IMG/VR virus record: IMGVR_UViG_3300034198_014533
Location: 1 to 25,016 of that record
Length of the DNA stretch: 25,016 bases
Source: a virus
Strand: one strand, 5' to 3'
Shown: positions 2,369 through 23,435 of the stretch, piece after piece
Layout: each line of letters starts with the position of its first letter
Position numbering within the stretch: position 1 is the stretch's first letter
Translations under genes and position numbers: made by a program
Notes under the pieces: model-generated
What the model was told of the DNA's origin: nothing
Seen by the model: only the letters and a program-made list of their open reading frames with translations
The model's database searches: none

Positions 2369-3001
2369 ATGACTGAAGCCATAATAGTAAGTATCACAGC
2401 AATAATTACTGCCGCTCTAACAAGTGTAATAGGACCAATAGTAGTTAATTACTTTACTGAACGAAAAAAGAATAAAAAAGATCTAATTAAAGAATCATTA
2501 GAAACCAATATGTTGGTTACTAATAAATTAGAAACAATATTAAACGAACATGGCGCCGACCGTGTTTGGATATCTCAATTTCATAATGGTGGCCATTTCT
2601 ACCCAACAGGTAAATCAATACAGAAATTTAGCATGGGTTATGAAATAGTTAGCCCCGGCACAACCTCAATACAAGCCAGTTTCCAAAACATTCCTATTAG
2701 TTTATTTTCTAGATCTATGAATCATATTCTAGAAAATGATGTTATATCTATATCTGATTATAAAGATGAAAGTATAGCAACATATGGTTTAAAATATACC
2801 GCTAGTGAGATGGGTTGTAAAAGTGCATATATGTTTGCATTAAAAACAATAGATAACAAATTTATAGGTGTAGTAGGTATTGATTTTGTAAAACGTAAAA
2901 GAACATTAGATGATGAAGAAATAAATCATTTAAAAAACGAAACAGCATTAATATGTGGTGTACTAACTAATCTTCTAGAATCCAAAAAACAACATGATTA
3001 A
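2369..3001 (+). CDS. Membrane-anchored GAF-like domain protein
   Basis: A 210-aa protein. Residues about 3-28 form one hydrophobic helix (IIVSITAIITAALTSVIGPI), followed by a positively charged ERKKNKK patch, so the bulk should face the cytoplasm with the N-terminus anchored in the inner membrane. The soluble part (about 60-205) contains VWISQFHNGG, a long variable loop, and a final strand pair FIGVVGIDFV followed by a helix. This is the general layout of GAF/PAS-type ligand-sensing domains, which otherwise occur in signalling proteins. It has no kinase, cyclase or DNA-binding output domain. It sits between the zinc-finger gene and the first tagged gene, whose ATGATTAA supplies this gene's stop codon. 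Function is unknown; membrane sensing or superinfection control is speculative. Confidence 0.6.
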   Translation: MTEAIIVSITAIITAALTSVIGPIVVNYFTERKKNKKDLIKESLETNMLVTNKLETILNEHGADRVWISQFHNGGHFYPTGKSIQKFSMGYEIVSPGTTSIQASFQNIPISLFSRSMNHILENDVISISDYKDESIATYGLKYTASEMGCKSAYMFALKTIDNKFIGVVGIDFVKRKRTLDDEEINHLKNETALICGVLTNLLESKKQHD

Positions 3002-3287
3002 ACTAACAGATATACTACAAGAAATAGAAAAAGGAGTAGATGTTTTTAAAGATAACCTAGAAGACCATAGCAATATGCATTATAGAGACCATGTTAAAGC
3101 CATCATTGAGCACGCTGAAAAAGCACTAGCAACCAGTGAACCTAAAATAATGCATAGTAACATAGCAGAAATTTTAAAACATGCTGAATCCGCTCATAAT
3201 AAAATATATAATAACGGTGATACAAGTGGTGTTCATAGTGGAGGAGGTCATGTAGCTGGATTTCACGCAAATAATGCTGATTTTTAA
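2994..3287 (+). CDS. Small tagged protein (IKLTDILQE N-terminus), putative internal virion protein
   Basis: A 97-aa protein that opens with MIKLTDILQE, the first of six closely related N-termini in this window ending in [LI]xE. Residues after the tag are helical and histidine-rich (several H at about 24-70), ending in a flexible Gly/His/Asn tail (HSGGGHVAGFHANN). No known domain. The ATG overlaps the stop of the GAF-like gene (ATGATTAA), so translation is probably coupled. By analogy with T4 internal proteins the tag may direct packaging into the prohead and be removed after E10. That is inference; the tag itself is seen directly. Confidence 0.65.
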   Translation: MIKLTDILQEIEKGVDVFKDNLEDHSNMHYRDHVKAIIEHAEKALATSEPKIMHSNIAEILKHAESAHNKIYNNGDTSGVHSGGGHVAGFHANNADF

Positions 3288-3289
3288 TT

Positions 3290-3535
3290 ATGATTAAACT
3301 AACAGACATATTAACAGAAAATTATGGTGGTGAAGGTGAAATGATTTTACCTCCTAATCATAAAGCAGGTTTAAAAGTACCTAAAGGTGGCTCATGTTGT
3401 GCCAATTGCAAATGGTGGAATAAAGAAAATCAAGTATGTAATAACACATACTATGCTGATTGGGCAGGTACAAATAAAATACCTTATGCTGCTGATGAAT
3501 ATTGTACAAACTGGTGGGAACCCATATCAAAATGA
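3290..3535 (+). CDS. Small tagged Cys-rich protein resembling high-potential iron-sulfur proteins
   Basis: An 81-aa protein starting MIKLTDILTE and followed by VPKGGSCCANCKWW (C36, C37, C40), C50 and a final DEYCTNWWEP with C72. The pattern C-x2-C ... C ... C next to aromatic residues, with PYAADEYC before the last cysteine, resembles the HiPIP (4Fe-4S) fold, though spacing differs from classical HiPIPs (C-x2-C-x9-C-x21-C here). It could equally be a structural zinc protein. It starts two bases after the previous stop, and its stop overlaps the next tagged start (AATGA). An electron-transfer protein carrying a packaging-type tag would be unusual. Confidence 0.6.
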   Translation: MIKLTDILTENYGGEGEMILPPNHKAGLKVPKGGSCCANCKWWNKENQVCNNTYYADWAGTNKIPYAADEYCTNWWEPISK

Positions 3536-3888
3536 TTAGACTAACCGACATACTATTAGAAATGCTCCTAGAAGACAGATGTAAACGCATTGCCGATCGC
3601 AAATACGATAAACCATCCGCTTATAAATCAGGAGCTATTGTTAGATGTCGTAAAGGACATATTTGGAAAGACTTAAAAGAAGATGAATCATTACATAAAT
3701 GGTTCAAACGCTCAGGTACACCTGGTAAAGAAGGTGGATGGGTTGATTGCAATACTTGTAGAGACGGTAAATGTAAATCATGTGGTAGAAAAGCAGGAGA
3801 AAAACGTTCAAAATACCCTTCATGCAGACCAACACCTGCACAATGTAAACAACCAGGTAAAGGTAAAAAATGGGGAAAAACAAAATAG
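3532..3888 (+). CDS. Small tagged basic Cys-rich protein, putative internal virion protein
   Basis: I place the start at the ATG at 3532, which overlaps the previous stop as ATGA, rather than an upstream in-frame codon at 3502. From there the protein begins MIRLTDILLE, matching the tag of its two upstream neighbours. About 118 aa. After the tag come a Lys/Arg-rich region, the pair CNTC...CKSC (probable zinc knuckle) and GEKRSKYPSCRPTPAQC, ending in a very basic PGKGKKWGKTK tail. High positive charge plus zinc knuckles suggests DNA contact, fitting a protein packaged with the genome. Function unknown; the WVDCNTC and YPSCRPTPAQC segments look like a conserved phage/virus family I cannot name with certainty. 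Confidence 0.65.
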   Translation: MIRLTDILLEMLLEDRCKRIADRKYDKPSAYKSGAIVRCRKGHIWKDLKEDESLHKWFKRSGTPGKEGGWVDCNTCRDGKCKSCGRKAGEKRSKYPSCRPTPAQCKQPGKGKKWGKTK

Positions 3889-7420: not shown

Positions 7421-8182
7421 ATGAATAAAATCAAAAGATTATTCTTCGATATTGAAACTAGCCCTAATATAGGTATATTCTGGACAGCAGGATATAAGCA
7501 AAATATAAGCTATGACAATATAATAAAAGAAAGAGCCATTATTTGTATTTGCTACAAATGGGCAGGCGAAGAAAAAGTACATTCGTTAACATGGGATTCA
7601 AACCAAAACGATAAAAAATTACTAGAAAGCTTTATAAAAGTAGCTAACCAAGCGGATGAATTAGTAGGACATAATGGAGATAAATTCGATTTACCATGGG
7701 TTAAAACTCGTTGTCTATATCATGAAATTCCCACCTTTCCCAACTACGTTACAATAGATACATTAAAACAAGCACGCTCCAAATTCCGATTCAATAGTAA
7801 TCGTCTAGATTATATAGGTAAATTTTTAGGATTAGGCGAAAAAATACATACCAGTTTTGATTTATGGAAAGATGTTGTATTAAATAAAGACAAAAAAGCA
7901 TTAAATCAAATGGTTGAATATTGTAAAGGAGATGTAGAGTTACTTGAAAAAGTATACAATAGAATATCACCATACGTCCCTCACAAAACACACGTTGGTG
8001 TGCTAAATGGAGGTGAAAAATACTCATGCCCATCATGTGGCTCAGATGACATGAAAATAGCTAAAAAACGTATATCAGCCACAGGAATGTCTAAAGTACA
8101 ATTACAATGTCAAGGATGTGGTAAATATCATACTATATCAAGTTCTGTATATGACAAATATTTATTGGAAAACCCAAAATAA
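7421..8182 (+). CDS. DnaQ/RNase H-like 3'-5' exonuclease with C-terminal zinc ribbon
   Basis: A 253-aa protein. The N-terminal domain carries the DEDD motifs: FFDIET (D10, E12), then VGHNGDKFDLPW (D87 and D90), then YCKGDVELLE (Y167, D171), the layout of DnaQ-like/YprB-type 3'-5' exonucleases that use two metal ions to remove nucleotides from DNA or RNA ends. A linker leads to a C-terminal zinc ribbon, CPSC (C203, C206) and CQGC (C230, C233), likely a nucleic-acid clamp. There is no polymerase domain, so this is a stand-alone nuclease. It has its own promoter-like region and no packaging tag. The 3' end of the gene also encodes the motif at 8156-8168 preceding the next gene. Confidence 0.82.
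   Translation: MNKIKRLFFDIETSPNIGIFWTAGYKQNISYDNIIKERAIICICYKWAGEEKVHSLTWDSNQNDKKLLESFIKVANQADELVGHNGDKFDLPWVKTRCLYHEIPTFPNYVTIDTLKQARSKFRFNSNRLDYIGKFLGLGEKIHTSFDLWKDVVLNKDKKALNQMVEYCKGDVELLEKVYNRISPYVPHKTHVGVLNGGEKYSCPSCGSDDMKIAKKRISATGMSKVQLQCQGCGKYHTISSSVYDKYLLENPK
8156..8168 (+). promoter_or_regulatory. Candidate late promoter motif inside the exonuclease gene end (AAATATTTATTGG)
   Basis: A copy of the recurrent motif within the last codons (KYLLEN) of the exonuclease gene, ending 19 bases before the tagged gene at 8188. Its spacing matches the intergenic copies. Confidence 0.4.
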
Positions 8183-8187
8183 TTAAA

Positions 8188-8256
8188 ATGACACAATTAA
8201 TCAAAGAAGCCAAACGCTTACAAAAACTAGCTGGTATTAGCGAAATAAAAATAAAC
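8188..8256 (+). repeat. 69-nt direct repeat, copy 1 (tag-coding block)
   Basis: The first 69 bases of the gene at 8188 are identical to those of the gene at 8643-8711 and encode the shared N-terminus through ISEIKIN. Identity ends abruptly and the proteins then differ completely. Confidence 0.9.
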
Positions 8257-8625
8257 CAGCCTTCCATACTTGATAGAATACTTAAAGAATATATTCAATT
8301 TTCCAAAAATATTTCAGTCGAACATTATAGTAATGAAGAATTAAAATTTTTGGAAGATATTAGCCCTGCCACTTCTGTAGAAGATCTAGCTAAAAAAATT
8401 CAATATATAGATAATTGCCTCACAGAAATGGTAGGTGATTATCTTGGGATGTTTTTTGAGGAGGTCGTACTAAAATTCTTAATAGATGATATATTTCCTA
8501 AACTAAAAGTACCACAAAGTATTGCAAAGGAATTACTAAATACTTTAGATGAATTATATGAAAGGGGGAAAAAGAATGGTTACGAAAAAGATTCTTATGA
8601 TAGTTATTTAAAAACTTTAACATAA
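8188..8625 (+). CDS. Tagged protein (LIKEAKRLQKLAGI type), unknown body
   Basis: A 145-aa protein. The first 23 residues (MTQLIKEAKRLQKLAGI then SEIKIN) are shared exactly with the next gene and form a basic amphipathic helix with an LIKE site and a second ISE site. The body is acidic and helical (ILDRILKEYIQFSKNIS, NEELKFLEDISPATSVEDL), with no recognised domain. After the tag the text EIKINQP is nearly the same as that following a different tag in the gene at 10097. Probably one of the packaged set; body function unknown. An 18-base gap separates it from its tag-sharing neighbour. Confidence 0.65.
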   Translation: MTQLIKEAKRLQKLAGISEIKINQPSILDRILKEYIQFSKNISVEHYSNEELKFLEDISPATSVEDLAKKIQYIDNCLTEMVGDYLGMFFEEVVLKFLIDDIFPKLKVPQSIAKELLNTLDELYERGKKNGYEKDSYDSYLKTLT

Positions 8626-8642
8626 TACTTATCTAAAAAACA

Positions 8643-8711
8643 ATGACACAATTAATCAAAGAAGCCAAACGCTTACAAAAACTAGCTGGTATTAGCGAAA
8701 TAAAAATAAAC
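8643..8711 (+). repeat. 69-nt direct repeat, copy 2 (tag-coding block)
   Basis: Base-for-base the same as 8188-8256. The lack of even synonymous differences points to recent duplication or gene conversion. Confidence 0.9.
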
Positions 8712-9290
8712 AAACCATTAAATGTGCGTTTTATAGCTACTGTTCCTTATTTATATAGAGGATGGGTTAAAATAGATGGTGTTAATGTTGAGTACAGTGT
8801 AGGGGGTGATGAATTAGATATATTAATAGGATATAATCTTGATTTACTTGAAAAATATGGAGGGTATTTAAATAACGGAGATGAAAATTATTATCCGGTA
8901 GAAGAAAGTAAAAAAGCATGTGAACATATTATACATCATTTTACACCTATCCAAGGAAAAATACAACAAGATGATTACGATGTATCATACATATCTATCC
9001 CTTTTCCAGAAGTTAAAGGATACATAGAGTATGATGGACCTATATATAAAGGTAATTATACATTCGAATGGAAAGGAAAAACTATAAGATTTGAAAGAGC
9101 TCCTGAACTTGACCAACCGGGAAATTTCGGTAAATATGCTTATAACATATATGACACTAATAATAAACTAATAAAAATAATATATTCTCCTAATGAAGAT
9201 ATAAACAGCTACATGGCCTATCAAGAAGATAATTCGACAGTAGATAAAAATAGCGTAGCTTCTTTATTTAAATCATATTATAATACATGA
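8643..9290 (+). CDS. Tagged protein (LIKEAKRLQKLAGI type), beta-rich body
   Basis: A 215-aa protein. Residues 1-23 are identical to the upstream neighbour. The body is different: beta-rich with many Tyr and Gly residues (YRGWVKIDGVNVEYSVGGDE, YIEYDGPIYKGNYTFEWKG), suggesting a beta-sandwich or barrel. No family recognised, and no Cys cluster or membrane segment. The stop overlaps the next start as ATGA at 9287. The shared tag on an unrelated body is the clearest evidence in the window that the N-terminus is an exchangeable module. Confidence 0.65.
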   Translation: MTQLIKEAKRLQKLAGISEIKINKPLNVRFIATVPYLYRGWVKIDGVNVEYSVGGDELDILIGYNLDLLEKYGGYLNNGDENYYPVEESKKACEHIIHHFTPIQGKIQQDDYDVSYISIPFPEVKGYIEYDGPIYKGNYTFEWKGKTIRFERAPELDQPGNFGKYAYNIYDTNNKLIKIIYSPNEDINSYMAYQEDNSTVDKNSVASLFKSYYNT

Positions 9291-9697
9291 CCGAACTAGA
9301 TAATATTCTATATAAACTAATCGAATTCCAACACTGCCACCCAAACATATACATAGGTGGCAGCATTTCATTAATATTACAGAAAGCTATACCTTATCGC
9401 ACCCCTAAAGATGTCGATATAATATCACCGGATAAAACACACATATATGACATATTTAATATAGAATCAGAAAATAAACACCCTCTTATTAGGCAATATA
9501 GATATAATAATTTAAAATTTGAATTATTTATCAACCCTAAAGCAGAATATATAGAATATAAATATAATAATAATATATTAAAAATATCGCCTATATATGA
9601 AGTATTTGAATGGAAACATAAGAGACAAAATATTTATAATGGAAAACATGCAGTTGATATAAATTATTATGAAACCACAATTAATCAAGGAAGCTAA
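9287..9697 (+). CDS. Minimal nucleotidyltransferase-like protein
   Basis: A 136-aa protein with GGS (24-26) on a helix start, then R38-x-P-K-D42-V-D44, the hG[GS]...DxD signature of the polymerase-beta-type nucleotidyltransferase fold, and a later FELFINP strand where a third acidic residue (E or D) is normally found. Such small enzymes transfer NMPs to proteins, RNA or small molecules; toxin-antitoxin MNT/AbiE-type proteins share the fold. The partner cannot be told from sequence. There is no tag at its own start. Its last residues (ETTINQGS) are the tag-coding DNA of the next gene read in another frame. Confidence 0.65.
   Translation: MTELDNILYKLIEFQHCHPNIYIGGSISLILQKAIPYRTPKDVDIISPDKTHIYDIFNIESENKHPLIRQYRYNNLKFELFINPKAEYIEYKYNNNILKISPIYEVFEWKHKRQNIYNGKHAVDINYYETTINQGS
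9628..9640 (+). promoter_or_regulatory. Candidate late promoter motif inside the nucleotidyltransferase gene (AAATATTTATAAT)
   Basis: A recurrent-motif copy 28 bases before the tagged ATG at 9669, inside coding sequence. Support is weaker than for the intergenic copies. Confidence 0.3.
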
Positions 9698-10100
9698 ACG
9701 CTTACAAAAACTAGCTGGTATCTTAACAGAACAAGATGAAACTCCTGATCTAACACCAATAGATCCGGATCCTTCCCAAATTCAACAACAAAAATCAGAA
9801 CCTGCTGATACTCCTGAAACACCCGCTGGTGTTATAAGTAAAGATGAAGCTAAACAATTAATTAAAGCTACTAAAGGTAAATTCTTTACAGTAACTTTTA
9901 TTAAAAAAGATGGTAACCCGCGCGTAATGAATGCTAAATTAGGTGTAAAAAAATATCTAAAAGGTGGTGAACTCCCATATGATCCTGAAGAAAAAGGATT
10001 AATACCTGTATATGATATGCAAAAAGGAGCATATAGATCAGTAAATGTAAGTACTATCACTAATTTAAAAATCGGTAATAAAGAATATCAAGTACAATGA
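9669..10100 (+). CDS. Tagged protein (LIKEAKRLQKLAGI type), beta-rich body
   Basis: A 143-aa protein starting MKPQLIKEAKRLQKLAGI then LTE, with LIKE and ILTE cut sites. The coding DNA 9676-9721 differs from the 8192-8237 copy by only two bases in 46, so it belongs to the same tag family. A Pro/Glu/Asp-rich linker (about 24-55) leads to a small domain starting SKDEAKQLIKATKGKFFTVTFIKKDG, with short strands and a final NLKIGNKEYQVQ. The domain is unknown; KFFTVTFIKKDGNPRVMNAKLGVKK looks like a small beta-barrel seen in phage proteins. The start overlaps the nucleotidyltransferase gene by 29 bases, and the stop overlaps the next ATG (ATGA). Confidence 0.65.
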   Translation: MKPQLIKEAKRLQKLAGILTEQDETPDLTPIDPDPSQIQQQKSEPADTPETPAGVISKDEAKQLIKATKGKFFTVTFIKKDGNPRVMNAKLGVKKYLKGGELPYDPEEKGLIPVYDMQKGAYRSVNVSTITNLKIGNKEYQVQ

Positions 10101-10567
10101 TAAAACTAACAGACATACTAAACGAAATTAAAATAAATCAACCGGGAAAAATAGAAAATGATAAAGATTTATTCAACTTTCTAAAAGGAAATATCCGAAA
10201 ATTTGCAGAACATGAATTAACAAGCCGTGATGACGTATACAGCATAGTAATAAATGAATTTATCGAATCACCCCCTAATATATTTACAGACGATGAGTTA
10301 AATGAAATAGAAGACAATACTTGGGAAGAATTAGATAATACTCTAAAAACAAAATTAAAACCATACTTAATAGATATCCTGGTAAACATAGGATTAACAT
10401 TTTTTCAATACGACGACAATACCAACAAAATTACTAGTGCAGTTTCATGGGATACAGAAATAGGACTAATATACTCATATTCAGACGAAGCAGATCCAGG
10501 TAGTTATACGTGGGATGAAGATGAGTTTCTAGGAAAAAAATTTTATTCATTATCGTTTGACATATAA
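10097..10567 (+). CDS. Tagged protein (IKLTDILNE) with hybrid linker, unknown body
   Basis: A 156-aa protein. The first 10 residues (MIKLTDILNE) are of the IKLTDIL type, but IKINQP follows at once, the linker that elsewhere follows the LIKEAKRLQKLAGI tag (gene at 8188). The body is acidic and helical (LFNFLKGNIRKFAEHELTSRDD, DELNEIEDNTWEELDN), ending in Tyr/Asp-rich strands. In general build it resembles the 8188 protein (acidic, NEE/DEL-E segment near residue 60), so the two may be distant homologues carrying different tags. Start and previous stop overlap as ATGA. Confidence 0.6.
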   Translation: MIKLTDILNEIKINQPGKIENDKDLFNFLKGNIRKFAEHELTSRDDVYSIVINEFIESPPNIFTDDELNEIEDNTWEELDNTLKTKLKPYLIDILVNIGLTFFQYDDNTNKITSAVSWDTEIGLIYSYSDEADPGSYTWDEDEFLGKKFYSLSFDI

Positions 10568-10575
10568 TTTAAATA

Positions 10576-11403
10576 ATGATAAAACTAACAGATATATTAA
10601 CTGAATTAATATTAAAAGAAGAAGAAAAATACTATCATGGTACTTTTTATTATTTCAAATGTTTTCGCGCAGCAGGGATAGGTGGGGGGGCGGGATCTCA
10701 AATATTTGGTTGGGGGATATATTTTGGTAAAGATTTTAATGTAGCAAAATCATATTCTGCTATGAGGAAAGATATAGCAAAATCATTAACTCTTTTTCAA
10801 GGAAAAAATCCATCTGAAATGGCATTTGAATATGATAACATAGTATTCGAAAGAATCCCATCAAAATTAAAAACTAAAGAAGAACTTATTGAATATGCTA
10901 AAGAAGTAATTGAACTTCTAGAAGAAGATGGAGACCCAGAAGGGTTAATTCCTGAATATAAAAGATTTATAGAAATAATTAATGAATTAGATATAAAAAA
11001 TGAAGGGATGAGTTATGTTTATGAAGTTTTATTACATAAAGGTAAATCACCTGATCAATATGAGTATTTAGATTGGGATTTACAATCAACCCCTCAAAGT
11101 CAAGTAGATAAAATAAATAAACAAGCTCAAAAAGAAGGATGGAAAGATTTTTATGTATCTACTGAAATGAGTCCTGGAGAAATATATAAATATATAAACT
11201 CATACATTATTAACAATAAAGTCAATAAGTATAGAATAAGACAAGAACACCAAATTTCATTCCCAGCAGGAAAAGATACATCTTTATTTTTATTAGCAGC
11301 AGGAATAGATGGAAATACTCATGGTAATGGTGGTGTAAGGATAATATTTGATGAAAAAGCCATAGAAATAATTAATGTTTGTAAAATGAATTATAAAAAA
11401 TGA
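10576..11403 (+). CDS. ADP-ribosyltransferase-like protein with packaging-type tag (Alt-like)
   Basis: A 275-aa protein. It opens MIKLTDILTE, then KYYHGTFYYF (H21), then GWGIYFGKDFNVAKSYS (Y49, Y60), the HGT ... G-x-GIYF ... A-x-x-Y signature of PARP/diphtheria-toxin-type ADP-ribosyltransferases, in which H and Y hold NAD+. A long helical insertion (about 75-190) follows, and the C-terminus has LLAAGIDGNTHGNGG and IIFDEKAIEIINV, the usual final strand pair. The catalytic glutamate normally found just before the last VxFD strand is not obvious (GGVRIIFD), so activity is uncertain. T4 Alt, a capsid-packaged ADP-ribosyltransferase that modifies host RNA polymerase after injection, has the same architecture: tag plus ART. 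The stop overlaps the next ATG. Confidence 0.7.
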   Translation: MIKLTDILTELILKEEEKYYHGTFYYFKCFRAAGIGGGAGSQIFGWGIYFGKDFNVAKSYSAMRKDIAKSLTLFQGKNPSEMAFEYDNIVFERIPSKLKTKEELIEYAKEVIELLEEDGDPEGLIPEYKRFIEIINELDIKNEGMSYVYEVLLHKGKSPDQYEYLDWDLQSTPQSQVDKINKQAQKEGWKDFYVSTEMSPGEIYKYINSYIINNKVNKYRIRQEHQISFPAGKDTSLFLLAAGIDGNTHGNGGVRIIFDEKAIEIINVCKMNYKK

Positions 11404-13358
11404 TAATCAATCGCCCTCTAAAACACATATTATTAGAATACAGCGAAAAAGTCTTTAAAACCAAAATAGAGCAATGGGATAAAGAAACTAAAGGTACTGT
11501 TCAAGATGCTGAAAATACATTTAGAAATGCTATATTAAATTTTGAAAAAATCAAAGATAGAATTTTTAAAAGATTAACAGACAATGTTAATCCTCTTAGA
11601 AATATGCCCACTAAATTTATAGCAAGTGACAAAAATCCTAAACCCAAAGACCCCAGAGATATAATGAATTATACATGGAACGACATGGAAAGGTTGTTTG
11701 ATGCTTGGGGCCCTATAGAGAAAGAAAAAAAAGGTAGTGAATTCAATACGGTTGAAGATGCTCACCTACTAAAAATAAACAACGTACCTTTAACATACTC
11801 AGGAAATGGAATATTTGTTTATGAAGGATCTTCTAAAGAACATTGTATAAAATTAACTTACGCTTTTAAATATAAAGATAAAAATGAAATTAAACCATAT
11901 AATTTTTGTATAGGACGAGTAGAATCTGGTGCTAATAGATATACTAAATATAGATTTGGTGGAGAACTATCAACTGGAGCCCTATATAGATCATTTTATT
12001 TCGTAGCAGACTCAACCCAATCTCCAGGATTAAAAATGAACGACAAAGGTGCTATGGAGTTTGAAAATTGGTATCATTTTTTTGTAATACATGTTTTTGA
12101 AAATGGCCAATTTGGTGTAACTGATGCCGTTAATGTGTATGGTCACGGTCATGAAATTGATGGGAATGGAAAAGGAATAAGTTGGGAAGACATAGGAAAT
12201 TTTATGATCAAACATGGAAAAGAAAGTGGTCGACAAGCTTGGGATAAAATAAAAAACCATAAAGATATTTTTAAATATATTAGTCCTTCTGAAGAAGAAG
12301 AAGAAGAAAACATAGCTGTTGGAGGAAGATTAAATTTTGATACCTTTGAAAAACTAAACTATAATTTAAAAGCATCATATATAAACAAAAGAGCAGAAGA
12401 CCCTAATTTCTTCACCCCCCAGATGTTTAGAATGTTAAATAAAGAATTAAAAAATTTAGCTCTAAACGCCGGATACCAACCATCATTAAATGATTTGAAA
12501 GATCAAAATAATGAAATTAGCAACTCTCTAGCCAGATTATATGCTAAAAAACAATTTAGAAAAAATGTAACAAGTAGAAATGAATCAAAATATGTTACTA
12601 ATCTTATTCCTTTACCTTTTATAAAATATTTAGACGAACCAAACAAAGAAATATATTTAGAAACATTTGATGATAATCTTACATTTGATTATATAGAAAA
12701 ATATTTCGGGGAAGAAACAGCTAAAAAATACGTTAATGAACAAACTAAAAAATTAGATTATTTACCTCAATCTGCCTTTAAGTATATTAATGATCCTAAA
12801 ATAAAAAAACTATATTCTATTTATAGTAAATTATTCAAAAATTGGGTTTTTTCAAAAGATACAAATATAAGTGAAAAAGAGCTTGAACAAAAAACATCAA
12901 TGCCTTTACAACAAATTACCCCATACCCTATAATATACGATGATTGGAAAGAATTAACTACTGAGGATAAAAAAATAATTTTAGAGTTAACAAATACATC
13001 AAATTCAAACAAAAAATATTTAACTCTTAATTATGCTGTACCATTTTTTATTAAAGATGAAAATAAAACTTATGCTTTATTACCTTTAGATGAAAATAAA
13101 GAAAAATGGGTATTAGTTGACATAAATACTAATAATGTAATACTTGAATTAGATGGAGATATATCAACATTAAATGATAATTTATTAATTTATGGGTATC
13201 CTTCCTATGGTGATGGTAATTATCAAAGAATATATTCTTTATCTGATTTAAAAACAAAAGATAAACCTGTTTCTTTAAAAGAATCAATATATGATAAATT
13301 AACACATATCGATTGGGATAAACGTAGATTATTACATAGAGCCGGTATAATAAAATAA
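11400..13358 (+). CDS. Large tagged phage protein of unknown function
   Basis: A 652-aa protein, the largest complete gene here. The N-terminus (MIINRPLKHILLE then Y) again ends in an [LI]xE site. Residues about 100-275 form a region rich in aromatic residues (HCIKLTYAFKYKDK, RSFYFVADSTQSPG, ENWYHFFVIHVFENGQFGV, GHGHEIDGNGKGISWEDIG) that looks like a folded alpha/beta domain. An acidic break EEEEEEN sits near 298-304. The second half is helical, then beta-rich, ending in DKRRLLHRAGIIK, which echoes the KRLQKLAGI motif found in the N-terminal tags. No family with a known function recognised. It follows the ART-like gene with an ATGA overlap, so the two may be co-made and co-packaged. Confidence 0.65.
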   Translation: MIINRPLKHILLEYSEKVFKTKIEQWDKETKGTVQDAENTFRNAILNFEKIKDRIFKRLTDNVNPLRNMPTKFIASDKNPKPKDPRDIMNYTWNDMERLFDAWGPIEKEKKGSEFNTVEDAHLLKINNVPLTYSGNGIFVYEGSSKEHCIKLTYAFKYKDKNEIKPYNFCIGRVESGANRYTKYRFGGELSTGALYRSFYFVADSTQSPGLKMNDKGAMEFENWYHFFVIHVFENGQFGVTDAVNVYGHGHEIDGNGKGISWEDIGNFMIKHGKESGRQAWDKIKNHKDIFKYISPSEEEEEENIAVGGRLNFDTFEKLNYNLKASYINKRAEDPNFFTPQMFRMLNKELKNLALNAGYQPSLNDLKDQNNEISNSLARLYAKKQFRKNVTSRNESKYVTNLIPLPFIKYLDEPNKEIYLETFDDNLTFDYIEKYFGEETAKKYVNEQTKKLDYLPQSAFKYINDPKIKKLYSIYSKLFKNWVFSKDTNISEKELEQKTSMPLQQITPYPIIYDDWKELTTEDKKIILELTNTSNSNKKYLTLNYAVPFFIKDENKTYALLPLDENKEKWVLVDINTNNVILELDGDISTLNDNLLIYGYPSYGDGNYQRIYSLSDLKTKDKPVSLKESIYDKLTHIDWDKRRLLHRAGIIK

Positions 13359-13369
13359 AAACAAATAAT

Positions 13370-13603
13370 ATGATAAACCCAACAGACACAATAACAGTAG
13401 ACGTACCTTTATTTATACGTTTATTAGAATACGCTCGTGAAGATGCCAAAACAGACATGGATCTTCATAAAGTAACAGAAAATGTATTATCGTTAAGCCA
13501 AAATGGCAAAACATTAACCATGGATCAATATGATTCTATTATGGGAAGCGCCGAAGCTATAGACGAGATGAAAAAACTACAGCGATTAGCTAATATTGTC
13601 TAA
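13370..13603 (+). CDS. Small conserved-looking phage protein of unknown function
   Basis: A 77-aa protein with an N-terminal VDVPLFIRLLEYAREDAKTDMDLH stretch, typical of a small helical bundle, and a C-terminus MKKLQRLANIV that resembles the KRLQKLAGI segment of the type-B tags. No domain of known function. It has no N-terminal tag. It starts 11 bases after the 652-aa gene and is followed by a motif-containing gap. Confidence 0.55.
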   Translation: MINPTDTITVDVPLFIRLLEYAREDAKTDMDLHKVTENVLSLSQNGKTLTMDQYDSIMGSAEAIDEMKKLQRLANIV

Positions 13604-19955: not shown

Positions 19956-21083
19956 ATGAAAAAATCTAAACTAATTGAATTAATTAATGAGGCTTTTAAT
20001 GAAGTATTACAAGAAGATGTAACCGCTGCTGTAACTACTAAATCGGGTACAAAATTTACCAAAGTCAAAAACCCATCTGAACTAAACCCCCTAAAATCAG
20101 ACCCAAATGTTTCTAGCATCGAAACAACAGCAGGCCAGAAATTAAAAGAAACAGAACAATTAGATGAAGCTGCTAAATTTAGTATAGCTGATCAAACAAA
20201 AGCCCAAACACTAATAGACGCAATATCAGGAGCTAATAAAGAAAGAATACAAAAAATAGTAGATGCTATAAATGATTCTCCTGCAGGATCATTAACAGGT
20301 GGTAAAATAGCTGCGGCTTTAGGATTGAATTCACAAGGTCCCATATATAATCTTCTATTAAAAATGGAAGAAGCCGGTATATTATCTACAACAAATAAAA
20401 TATCTTTAAGCAAAAAAACCACACCACCACCACCAACAGCACCTACTACTCCTGGTGAAACACCTGAAGATGAAGATGATGATACAACCGAATTACCATT
20501 AAGTGGTGAAGCCGGTTTATTTCTAGGTGGTGATCAAGATTTAGAAAAGACACTTAGCCCATACTTTGGAGGAGAAGAAACACCTGAAGAAACACCCGAA
20601 GAAACATCAGTATCTACTTCAATACCATCAACACCAGCATCAAAAGCAACTGATTTCTTCCTAGACAATGAAAGATTATTCCAAAGACTAATCAATACAT
20701 ACACAGCATCTAGAATGAAAGTCAGAGAAGAAAAAACACCAGGTGATGTATCATCATCAGATATGTCTTCTGCTGAAAAATCTAGAAAAGAAAGATCAGT
20801 AGCTGGAATAGATGCTATGATAGATCAATTTATAGAAAAAATAAAAGCCGAAGATGAAGATACACAAAAATCAATCATGAATATGCTTGAAAAGAAATTA
20901 GCTAGTGTAAACGCTTCAGGTTTGTATAAAAGAATATCAAATAAAGTAGGACACACATCAGCATCGACAACAACTCCTGAGATAGTACCTGTATCTGAAG
21001 AAGATGAAGATTTTGAAGAAGAAAACAATACATTAGATGAGATAGTGTTAAATCGTTTTAGAAAAATAGCAAATATAAAATAA
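19956..21083 (+). CDS. Tagged winged-helix protein with acidic low-complexity linker
   Basis: A 375-aa protein. MKKSKLIELINEAFNEVLQE gives a basic then acidic amphipathic start with LINE|A and VLQE sites, the former followed by Ala as in T4 internal proteins. At about 80-150 lies a winged-helix-like domain (KERIQKIVDAINDSPAGSLTGG, AAALGLNSQGPIYNLLLKMEEAGILS), the second such domain in the tagged set. A long Thr/Pro/Glu/Asp linker with ETPEE repeats (about 155-225) follows, then a charged helical region and a C-terminus NRFRKIANIK recalling the KRLQKLAGI segment. Unknown function; DNA binding inside or after delivery from the capsid is the inference. It lies between the kinase gene and the spanin-like pair. 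Confidence 0.65.
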   Translation: MKKSKLIELINEAFNEVLQEDVTAAVTTKSGTKFTKVKNPSELNPLKSDPNVSSIETTAGQKLKETEQLDEAAKFSIADQTKAQTLIDAISGANKERIQKIVDAINDSPAGSLTGGKIAAALGLNSQGPIYNLLLKMEEAGILSTTNKISLSKKTTPPPPTAPTTPGETPEDEDDDTTELPLSGEAGLFLGGDQDLEKTLSPYFGGEETPEETPEETSVSTSIPSTPASKATDFFLDNERLFQRLINTYTASRMKVREEKTPGDVSSSDMSSAEKSRKERSVAGIDAMIDQFIEKIKAEDEDTQKSIMNMLEKKLASVNASGLYKRISNKVGHTSASTTTPEIVPVSEEDEDFEEENNTLDEIVLNRFRKIANIK

Positions 21084-21854: not shown

Positions 21855-23435
21855 ATGAGTGAGCATCAAAATATAAAAGATATAATTAGGAGTGAATATT
21901 TAAAATGTGCTATAGATCCTGTTTATTTTTTTAAAAAATATTGCTATATATCACACCCTAAAAGAGGCCGTATATTATTTAATTTATACCCTTTCCAAGA
22001 AGACGTTTTAAGAGCATTTAAAGAAAATAATTATTCTATAATAAATAAATCAAGACAATTAGGTATATCTACATTAGTTGCTGGTTATTCATTATGGACT
22101 ATGCTATTCAATAAAGATAAAACTATCCTATGTATAGCCACTAAACAGGTAACCGCAGCTAACATGGTTGAAAAAGTACAATTTATGTACCAAAATTTAC
22201 CATCATGGTTACGAGGCACTAAACCCGAATCTAACAATAAATTATCATTAAAATTACCAAATGGATCACAAATAGTAGCTACATCTGCATCTAGTGATGC
22301 TGGTCGTTCATACGCTGTATCGTTATTAATAATGGATGAGGCTGCTTTTATTGAAGGTATTGATAAAATATATACTTCAATTATCCCTACCTTAGCAACT
22401 GGTGGTGGATGTATTGCATTATCTTCACCTAACGGTGTTGGTAACTGGTTCCATAGAACATGGGAAGAAGCAGTAATACATAAAAATAATTTCTACCCTA
22501 TAGAATTAAAATGGAATCTACACCCAGAACGAGATGAAAAATGGGAAACATCAGAACGAGCAAATATGTCTGCTCGTGAATTTGCTCAAGAATACGATTG
22601 TGACTTTTTAGGATCGGGTAATTCATTAGTTGAAAACGAAACATTAGACTTTTATGAACAAACATATATCCAAGATCCTGTAGAACGTAGATTTATGGGA
22701 GGTGATTTTTGGATATGGCAGTATCCTGACTATAGCAGACAATACTTAATAAGCGCCGACGTTGCTCGTGGAGATGGATCTGACTACTCAACATTCCATG
22801 TTATAGATGTTGAAGCCTGTGAGCAAGTAGCAGAATATAGATCACAAATAGGAACACGTGAATTTGGACATATGCTAGTATCAGTAGCAAGTGAATATAA
22901 TAACGCATTAGTAGTAGTAGAAAATGCTAATATTGGTTGGGATGTTATAAACACTATTATTGAGAGAGGCTATAATAACATGTATTATTCACCTAAATCA
23001 TATGGTGATATGTCTATAGACAAATACTTAGCAAAAATGGAAGCTGAACAAACAGTTCCTGGTTTTACTATGAGTCAAAGAACAAGACCGCTTGTTATCT
23101 CAAAATTAGAGTCGTATATTCGAGAAAAGGCATTTGTGTTTCGTTCTAAACGTTTATTAGCTGAATTAAGAGTATTTATATGGTTGAATGGTAAAGCCCA
23201 AGCACAACAAGGATATAATGATGACTTAGTGATGGCTTTAGGAATAGGACTATTTACAAGAGATACGGCTTTAAAATTTGCTGTTCAAGGTAAAGATATA
23301 GCTAGAGCAGCATTAGATGGATTTGCAAAAACAAGTTATACATCATTATACCCTACTATGCCTAATGGCTTCGCAAACCCATATAATATACAAATAAATG
23401 GGCAAACAGAAGATATAACATGGGTGCTAGGATAA
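21855..23435 (+). CDS. Terminase large subunit (T4 gp17-like)
   Basis: A 526-aa protein, the ATP-driven DNA-packaging motor with a nuclease domain. N-terminal ATPase: Walker A SRQLGIST (66-73), Walker B LLIMDE (157-162) with E162 as the catalytic residue, and motif III ALSSP (188-192). C-terminal RNase H-like nuclease: ISADVARGDGSDYST (D302), VVVEN (E356) and YNDDLVMALG (D456/D457), the three acidic metal-binding groups. Length is slightly below T4 gp17 (610 aa). It docks on the portal encoded next. It has its own motif and follows a strong terminator. No small terminase subunit is recognisable nearby. Confidence 0.95.
   Translation: MSEHQNIKDIIRSEYLKCAIDPVYFFKKYCYISHPKRGRILFNLYPFQEDVLRAFKENNYSIINKSRQLGISTLVAGYSLWTMLFNKDKTILCIATKQVTAANMVEKVQFMYQNLPSWLRGTKPESNNKLSLKLPNGSQIVATSASSDAGRSYAVSLLIMDEAAFIEGIDKIYTSIIPTLATGGGCIALSSPNGVGNWFHRTWEEAVIHKNNFYPIELKWNLHPERDEKWETSERANMSAREFAQEYDCDFLGSGNSLVENETLDFYEQTYIQDPVERRFMGGDFWIWQYPDYSRQYLISADVARGDGSDYSTFHVIDVEACEQVAEYRSQIGTREFGHMLVSVASEYNNALVVVENANIGWDVINTIIERGYNNMYYSPKSYGDMSIDKYLAKMEAEQTVPGFTMSQRTRPLVISKLESYIREKAFVFRSKRLLAELRVFIWLNGKAQAQQGYNDDLVMALGIGLFTRDTALKFAVQGKDIARAALDGFAKTSYTSLYPTMPNGFANPYNIQINGQTEDITWVLG

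Follow-up and report, generated by a model that had tools for sequence, protein, structure and literature searches.

The closest described counterparts of the peptides discussed here are the capsid targeting sequences (CTSs) of phage T4, found on IPI, IPII, IPIII, and Alt, where a short N-terminal peptide ending in L/I-x-E heads proteins that are otherwise unrelated, a gp21-type protease acts, and the cargo is variable and has anti-defence roles (PMC9026906, PMC12373910, PMC9391042). T4 gp21 cleaves after L/I-x-E, and in the CTS positions 4 and 7 serve targeting and positions 8 and 10 processing (PMC9026906). The T4 proteins Ip1-3 are injected restriction-enzyme inhibitors that have only the leader in common (PMC12373910). 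A review of T4 places the CTS in IPII and IPIII and reports it absent from other core proteins; because the structure of the core is unresolved, the binding partner of the CTS is still an open question (PMC9958956). Other phages offer partial likenesses. In the giant phage SPN3US, the diverged head proteins gp53 and gp54 are identical over their first 15 residues and are cut by the prohead protease (PMC5694885), but they are paralogs with related bodies and have much longer propeptides than those described here. In phage P1, a reporter can be directed into the head by no more than the first 30 residues of DarB (PMC9024508), yet the Dar proteins have no common consensus, and no L/I-x-E tag set has been reported for them.

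We analysed a 25-kb metagenomic virus record, itself a fragment (the window; the ORFs and tag copies given for it are all on the plus strand). Two adjacent genes in it open with the same peptide, MTQLIKEAKRLQKLAGI-SE, which is a member of a set of N-terminal peptides found among the T4-type relatives of Flavobacterium phage immuto. Judging from the sequences, we consider it probable (roughly 85%) that these peptides are T4-type CTSs on injected cargo and that they have been copied locally by recombination. The likeness to the T4 tag is one of character, as the peptides are too short for a homology claim. New here, and different from T4, is a set of such size and variety (several classes of tag on a far greater number of bodies), together with the swapping of tags on orthologs and the match between one class of cargo tag and the C-terminus of the scaffold; the copying at the DNA level is also new.

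We infer the following course of events. Tag-bearing proteins would be drawn to the core of the prohead and become enclosed, a prohead protease of the gp21 family would cut after the hydrophobic-x-E with which the tag ends, and the bodies so released would remain in the head and be injected with the DNA. New bodies would be acquired through recombination at the tag DNA, and in the window two tag-body units and a further ORF at 9287 would have been gained ahead of a resident tagged gene at 9669. If so, the tags would allow injected phage proteins to be searched for, and their duplications would show a route by which cargo is gained.

Tag classes, cleavage motif and cargo

Two classes of tag are found in the window. 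Class A, MIKLTDILxE, heads the ORFs at 2994-3287 (MIKLTDILQE), 3290-3535 (MIKLTDILTE), 3532-3888 (MIRLTDILLE), 10097-10567 (MIKLTDILNE, 10097-10126), and 10576-11403 (MIKLTDILTE), and class B, or LAGI, is RLQKLAGI with E within a few residues and heads ORFs 8188, 8643, and 9669. Related phages add classes C and D, which are short and loosely defined, and stricter clustering gives about 92 body clusters for class A, about 55 for B, 42 for C, and 17 for D. In the loci gathered, tag peptides stand at 210 of 3041 ORF starts and at 7 of 5771 internal Met positions, counts that overstate the independent events given that the loci are mutually related. The class A pattern was found in at least 118 stretches of viral contigs, as against a single one in 257 Gb of bacterial and archaeal genomes, and the literature searched held no mention of the MIKLTDIL peptide. 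At L041:7084-7953 (minus strand), both tags stand in series on one protein, MIKLTDILNE-VRRFQQLAGLTE.

The sequence features by which a CTS can be recognized are largely present. The tags are short peptides (10-19 residues) on unrelated proteins, and their ends correspond to L/I-x-E. Class A tags end in hydrophobic-x-E in 85 of 94 cases (controls, 77 of 2722), and for class B a hydrophobic-x-E lies within seven residues in 38 of 41 (controls, 10.8%). Since the initial locus search required E at the motif position, these counts were taken on loci found through the exonuclease gene and on whole records, in which only the ORF that retrieved the record had been preselected for E. MIKLTDILNE aligns without gaps with MKTYQEFIAE of T4 IPII and IPIII, position by position in character. 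Read against that peptide, class A also fits the hydrophobic or aromatic positions 4, 7, 8, and 10, whereas LAGI positions do not correspond; the T4 targeting positions, which can be matched for class A only, are thus the one feature that does not fit throughout. In two sets of related records, which include many fragments, the gp21 family (PF03420) scored above the cut-off in 13 of 21 and 11 of 20, with the records of L139 and L128 among the positives. The window itself ends short of the protease, scaffold, and capsid genes, and their presence is therefore inferred from relatives; it does hold the T4-type terminase large subunit (21855-23435).

Most of the first 125 tagged proteins that were scanned had no Pfam match. 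Among those that did are a Tad3 Thoeris inhibitor, whose domain starts at residue 11, directly behind MRLVDILKE, an Fe/Mn superoxide dismutase, and proteins with matches to the zeta-toxin/nucleotidase, RNase T, and nucleotidyltransferase families. Such cargo is in keeping with the restriction-enzyme inhibitors Ip1-3 that T4 injects; we found no paper on Tad3 in the literature searched. In the window, ORF 10576 has a weak match to an ADP-ribosyltransferase (ART-PolyVal) below the Pfam cut-off, and its matches among solved structures were designed helical proteins, which we dismissed as composition effects. Two cases may be singled out: at L098:7744-8442 (minus strand), a class A tag heads an Fe/Mn superoxide dismutase, a candidate head-delivered enzyme, and the tagged protein at L134:961-1695 looks like a polyprotein, as it joins a Tad3 domain, an LLKE site, and another body that elsewhere stands alone as a tagged protein. 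In G003 (L246, L247), L132, L133, and L128, many tagged bodies start with [IY]-[KT]-[VI]-x-x-P after the cleavage E.

Tagged genes resemble phage morons in being extra gene units acquired between conserved genes, and LAGI genes often have a promoter-like box of their own; unlike a moron, the unit here also bears a protein address tag. The box AATATTTATT has 11 matches on both strands of the window, where 1.3 would be expected, and one of them (8157-8166, plus strand) lies some 30 nt upstream of the start codon of ORF 8188. Plus-strand matches start at 27, 2334, 7383, 8157, 13602, 16708, 19929, and 23438, and several ORF starts follow at 25-37 nt. Across phages, TATTTAT occurs upstream of 22 of 41 LAGI-tagged genes (54%) and of 15% of untagged genes. 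We rejected the idea that the box is a general promoter of head genes, as it precedes none of 22 capsid genes and 1 of 22 scaffold genes.

The LAGI motif and the scaffold C-terminus

In the isolates immuto and Mel-JY01, the gene order is terminase, portal, protease, a scaffold-like ORF, and the capsid protein, and the scaffold-like ORF ends in ..SRWQKLAGIIK and ..ERMKKLAGIVK, respectively. The ORF before the major capsid protein (MCP) gene, which we regard as the scaffold from its position and its acidic, helical character rather than from a family match, ends in R-[MWLF]-x-x-[LI]-A-[GN]-[IL] in both isolates and in 20 of 22 IMG/VR loci, several of which are closely related; the two exceptions end in ..KLAFGK and ..FKSLVNYNK. 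The LAGI peptide is thus N-terminal on the cargo and C-terminal on the scaffold. Because the same peptide closes the scaffold ORF beside the MCP, we propose for the LAGI class that recruitment would proceed by imitation of the scaffold; the match suggests as much, and it points to a testable partner or a shared receptor. More tentatively, and at somewhat less than even odds in our view, LAGI tags might mimic the peptide that joins the scaffold to the capsid or core, and the tag DNA might serve as a recombination port through which injected effectors are plugged in behind a standard head address and existing effectors exchange their addresses.

The C-terminal version of the motif is found on other ORFs as well. 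Those in the window are a 652-aa ORF at 11400-13358, which ends in ..RRLLHRAGIIK and whose L128 ortholog ends in ..KRILKLAGILR, an ORF at 13370-13603 (..MKKLQRLANIV), and one at 19956-21083 (..NRFRKIANIK). The records of L219 and L221, which have the divergent scaffold ends, hold no LAGI cargo, as would be expected if tag and scaffold co-varied; LAGI cargo is likewise absent from the record of G004, which has a normal scaffold end. A more specific version, in which cargo tags follow the variant scaffold end LAFGK, was unsupported: G022 has LAFGK cargo, and its scaffold ends in RMRELAGLKK.

These observations also bear on the alternative that the tag is some other sorting or interaction peptide, for instance one for oligomerization or for a compartment made by the phage, and not a head-targeting peptide. 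In low-confidence predictions of the proteins of ORFs 8188 and 8643, the LAGI tag is modelled as a short helix, a form that is common among interaction peptides. Against this stand the terminal hydrophobic-x-E sites and the gp21 protease of related records, the same motif at the C-terminus of the scaffold, and the location of tagged genes between the protease and capsid genes, so that we consider this alternative unlikely.

Duplication, exchange and gain of tags

The preliminary description had reported that positions 8188-8256 and 8643-8711 are identical and that the identity stops abruptly before unrelated bodies, and both points hold. All 69 of 69 nt agree from the two ATGs onward, with one more identical nucleotide to the left, and the identity breaks off at codon 23. 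Copy 1 (8188-8256) comprises MTQLIKEAKRLQKLAGISE (8188-8244) and the shared mature start IKIN; the segment is thus a composite of a 19-aa tag ending in ISE and the residues with which the mature body opens, IKIN[Q/K]P, and IKINQP also follows a different tag in ORF 10097 (MIKLTDILNE-IKINQP). Beyond the shared segment, BLASTP detects no similarity between the protein of ORF 8188 (8188-8625, 145 aa) and that of ORF 8643 (8643-9290, 215 aa; best E = 6). Neither has a known family or relatives that we could find in viral contigs, nor did we find a solved-structure match for 8643. Single-sequence AlphaFold models give an all-helical body for 8188 (pLDDT 61) and a mixed alpha/beta body for 8643 (pLDDT 38), both at low confidence. 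The third copy, MKPQLIKEAKRLQKLAGILTE (9669-9731), heads ORF 9669 (9669-10100; WYL_2/phrog_2267) and, again as first described, differs from copy 1 at two of the 46 nt in 9676-9721 (44/46).

Could the two genes have arisen through an ordinary tandem duplication, after which the bodies diverged past recognition while selection kept the tag? They are adjacent, and paralogs may exist elsewhere, as three LAGI ORFs in G003 appear, by eye, to have a common GDKL-type body start; duplication of tag and body together may thus occur in addition. For 8188 and 8643, however, all 23 codons of the shared peptide are identical and the bodies lack any similarity, down to predicted secondary structures that differ, if at low confidence. 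Two independent genes would encode this peptide with the same codon at every position with a probability of about 8.5e-9, as calculated from codon usage at N-termini in these phages, and total divergence of the bodies cannot go together with fixed synonymous sites in the tags. Furthermore, L139 repeats the pattern with an exact 90-nt tag duplication on two adjacent genes with different bodies, where the similarity reaches into the upstream DNA. We therefore regard tandem duplication as a quite improbable account of this pair. Least credible is that the repeat is an artefact of metagenomic assembly, or a DNA identity imposed by an RNA-level element at the gene start, since, even though the record is metagenomic and 69 nt is less than a common read length, the third copy has diverged, the 90-nt case in L139 is independent, and the tags occur on hundreds of ORFs, most of them varying synonymously.

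Local copying of tag DNA, the reading we prefer, can be compared with the fate of this site in related phages. In 20 relatives with both anchors, the DNA polymerase exonuclease subunit (7421-8182 in the window, the left syntenic anchor) is followed by the ortholog of 9669, either directly (15 relatives) or with one small unrelated ORF between them (5 relatives). ORFs 8188, 8643, and 9287 stand at this site in the window only, and, as none of the 20 relatives has the 1.5-kb tagged block, the block was gained in the window. ORF 9287 (9287-9697) is an untagged member of that block and runs into the tag DNA of 9669, where its stop codon lies; this is compatible with a recombination junction at the tag. 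The tag of 8188 matches that of the resident 9669 at 44/46, more closely than the tag of any ortholog of 9669 does (at best about 43/51).

Tags are also exchanged on orthologous bodies. ORF 10097 has a class A tag and its homolog L128:10208 a class B tag, the switch falling at the E before IK[IV], and, beside the exonuclease, the tag on the ortholog of 9669 is of class B in five relatives, of class C in others, and of class D in L143. Further swaps were found for 13635 (compared with L129:7241), for 3290, whose related body L016:5343 has a class D tag, and in the 6193 family.

Such movement had been anticipated in the preliminary description, which viewed the tag as a mobile DNA module and suggested looking in relatives for gain or loss of tagged bodies at this locus and comparing synonymous conservation in tag-coding and flanking DNA; beside the gain of the block, the synonymous sites also speak for it. 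Within a locus, two tags of the same class use the same codon more often (168 of 220 for LAGI and 310 of 459 for MIKLTDIL) than N-terminal controls (49%). Class B pairs less than 1.5 kb apart share 70% of the codons for equal residues and distant pairs 52% (p = 0.006), and class A shows no effect of distance. The class B excess is confined to near pairs, and a few pairs of this class have therefore been copied locally and recently. Movement as a DNA module is shown for these few copies, since most of the similarity of tags across phages is maintained at the protein level.

Insertions of another sort may have occurred in related phages. In L139 (9758-11928) and L143 (7896-10094), window ORF 14712 has an ortholog that is split in two, and an ORF related to window ORF 16043 lies between the pieces or next to them, an arrangement that looks like the insertion of a homing endonuclease.
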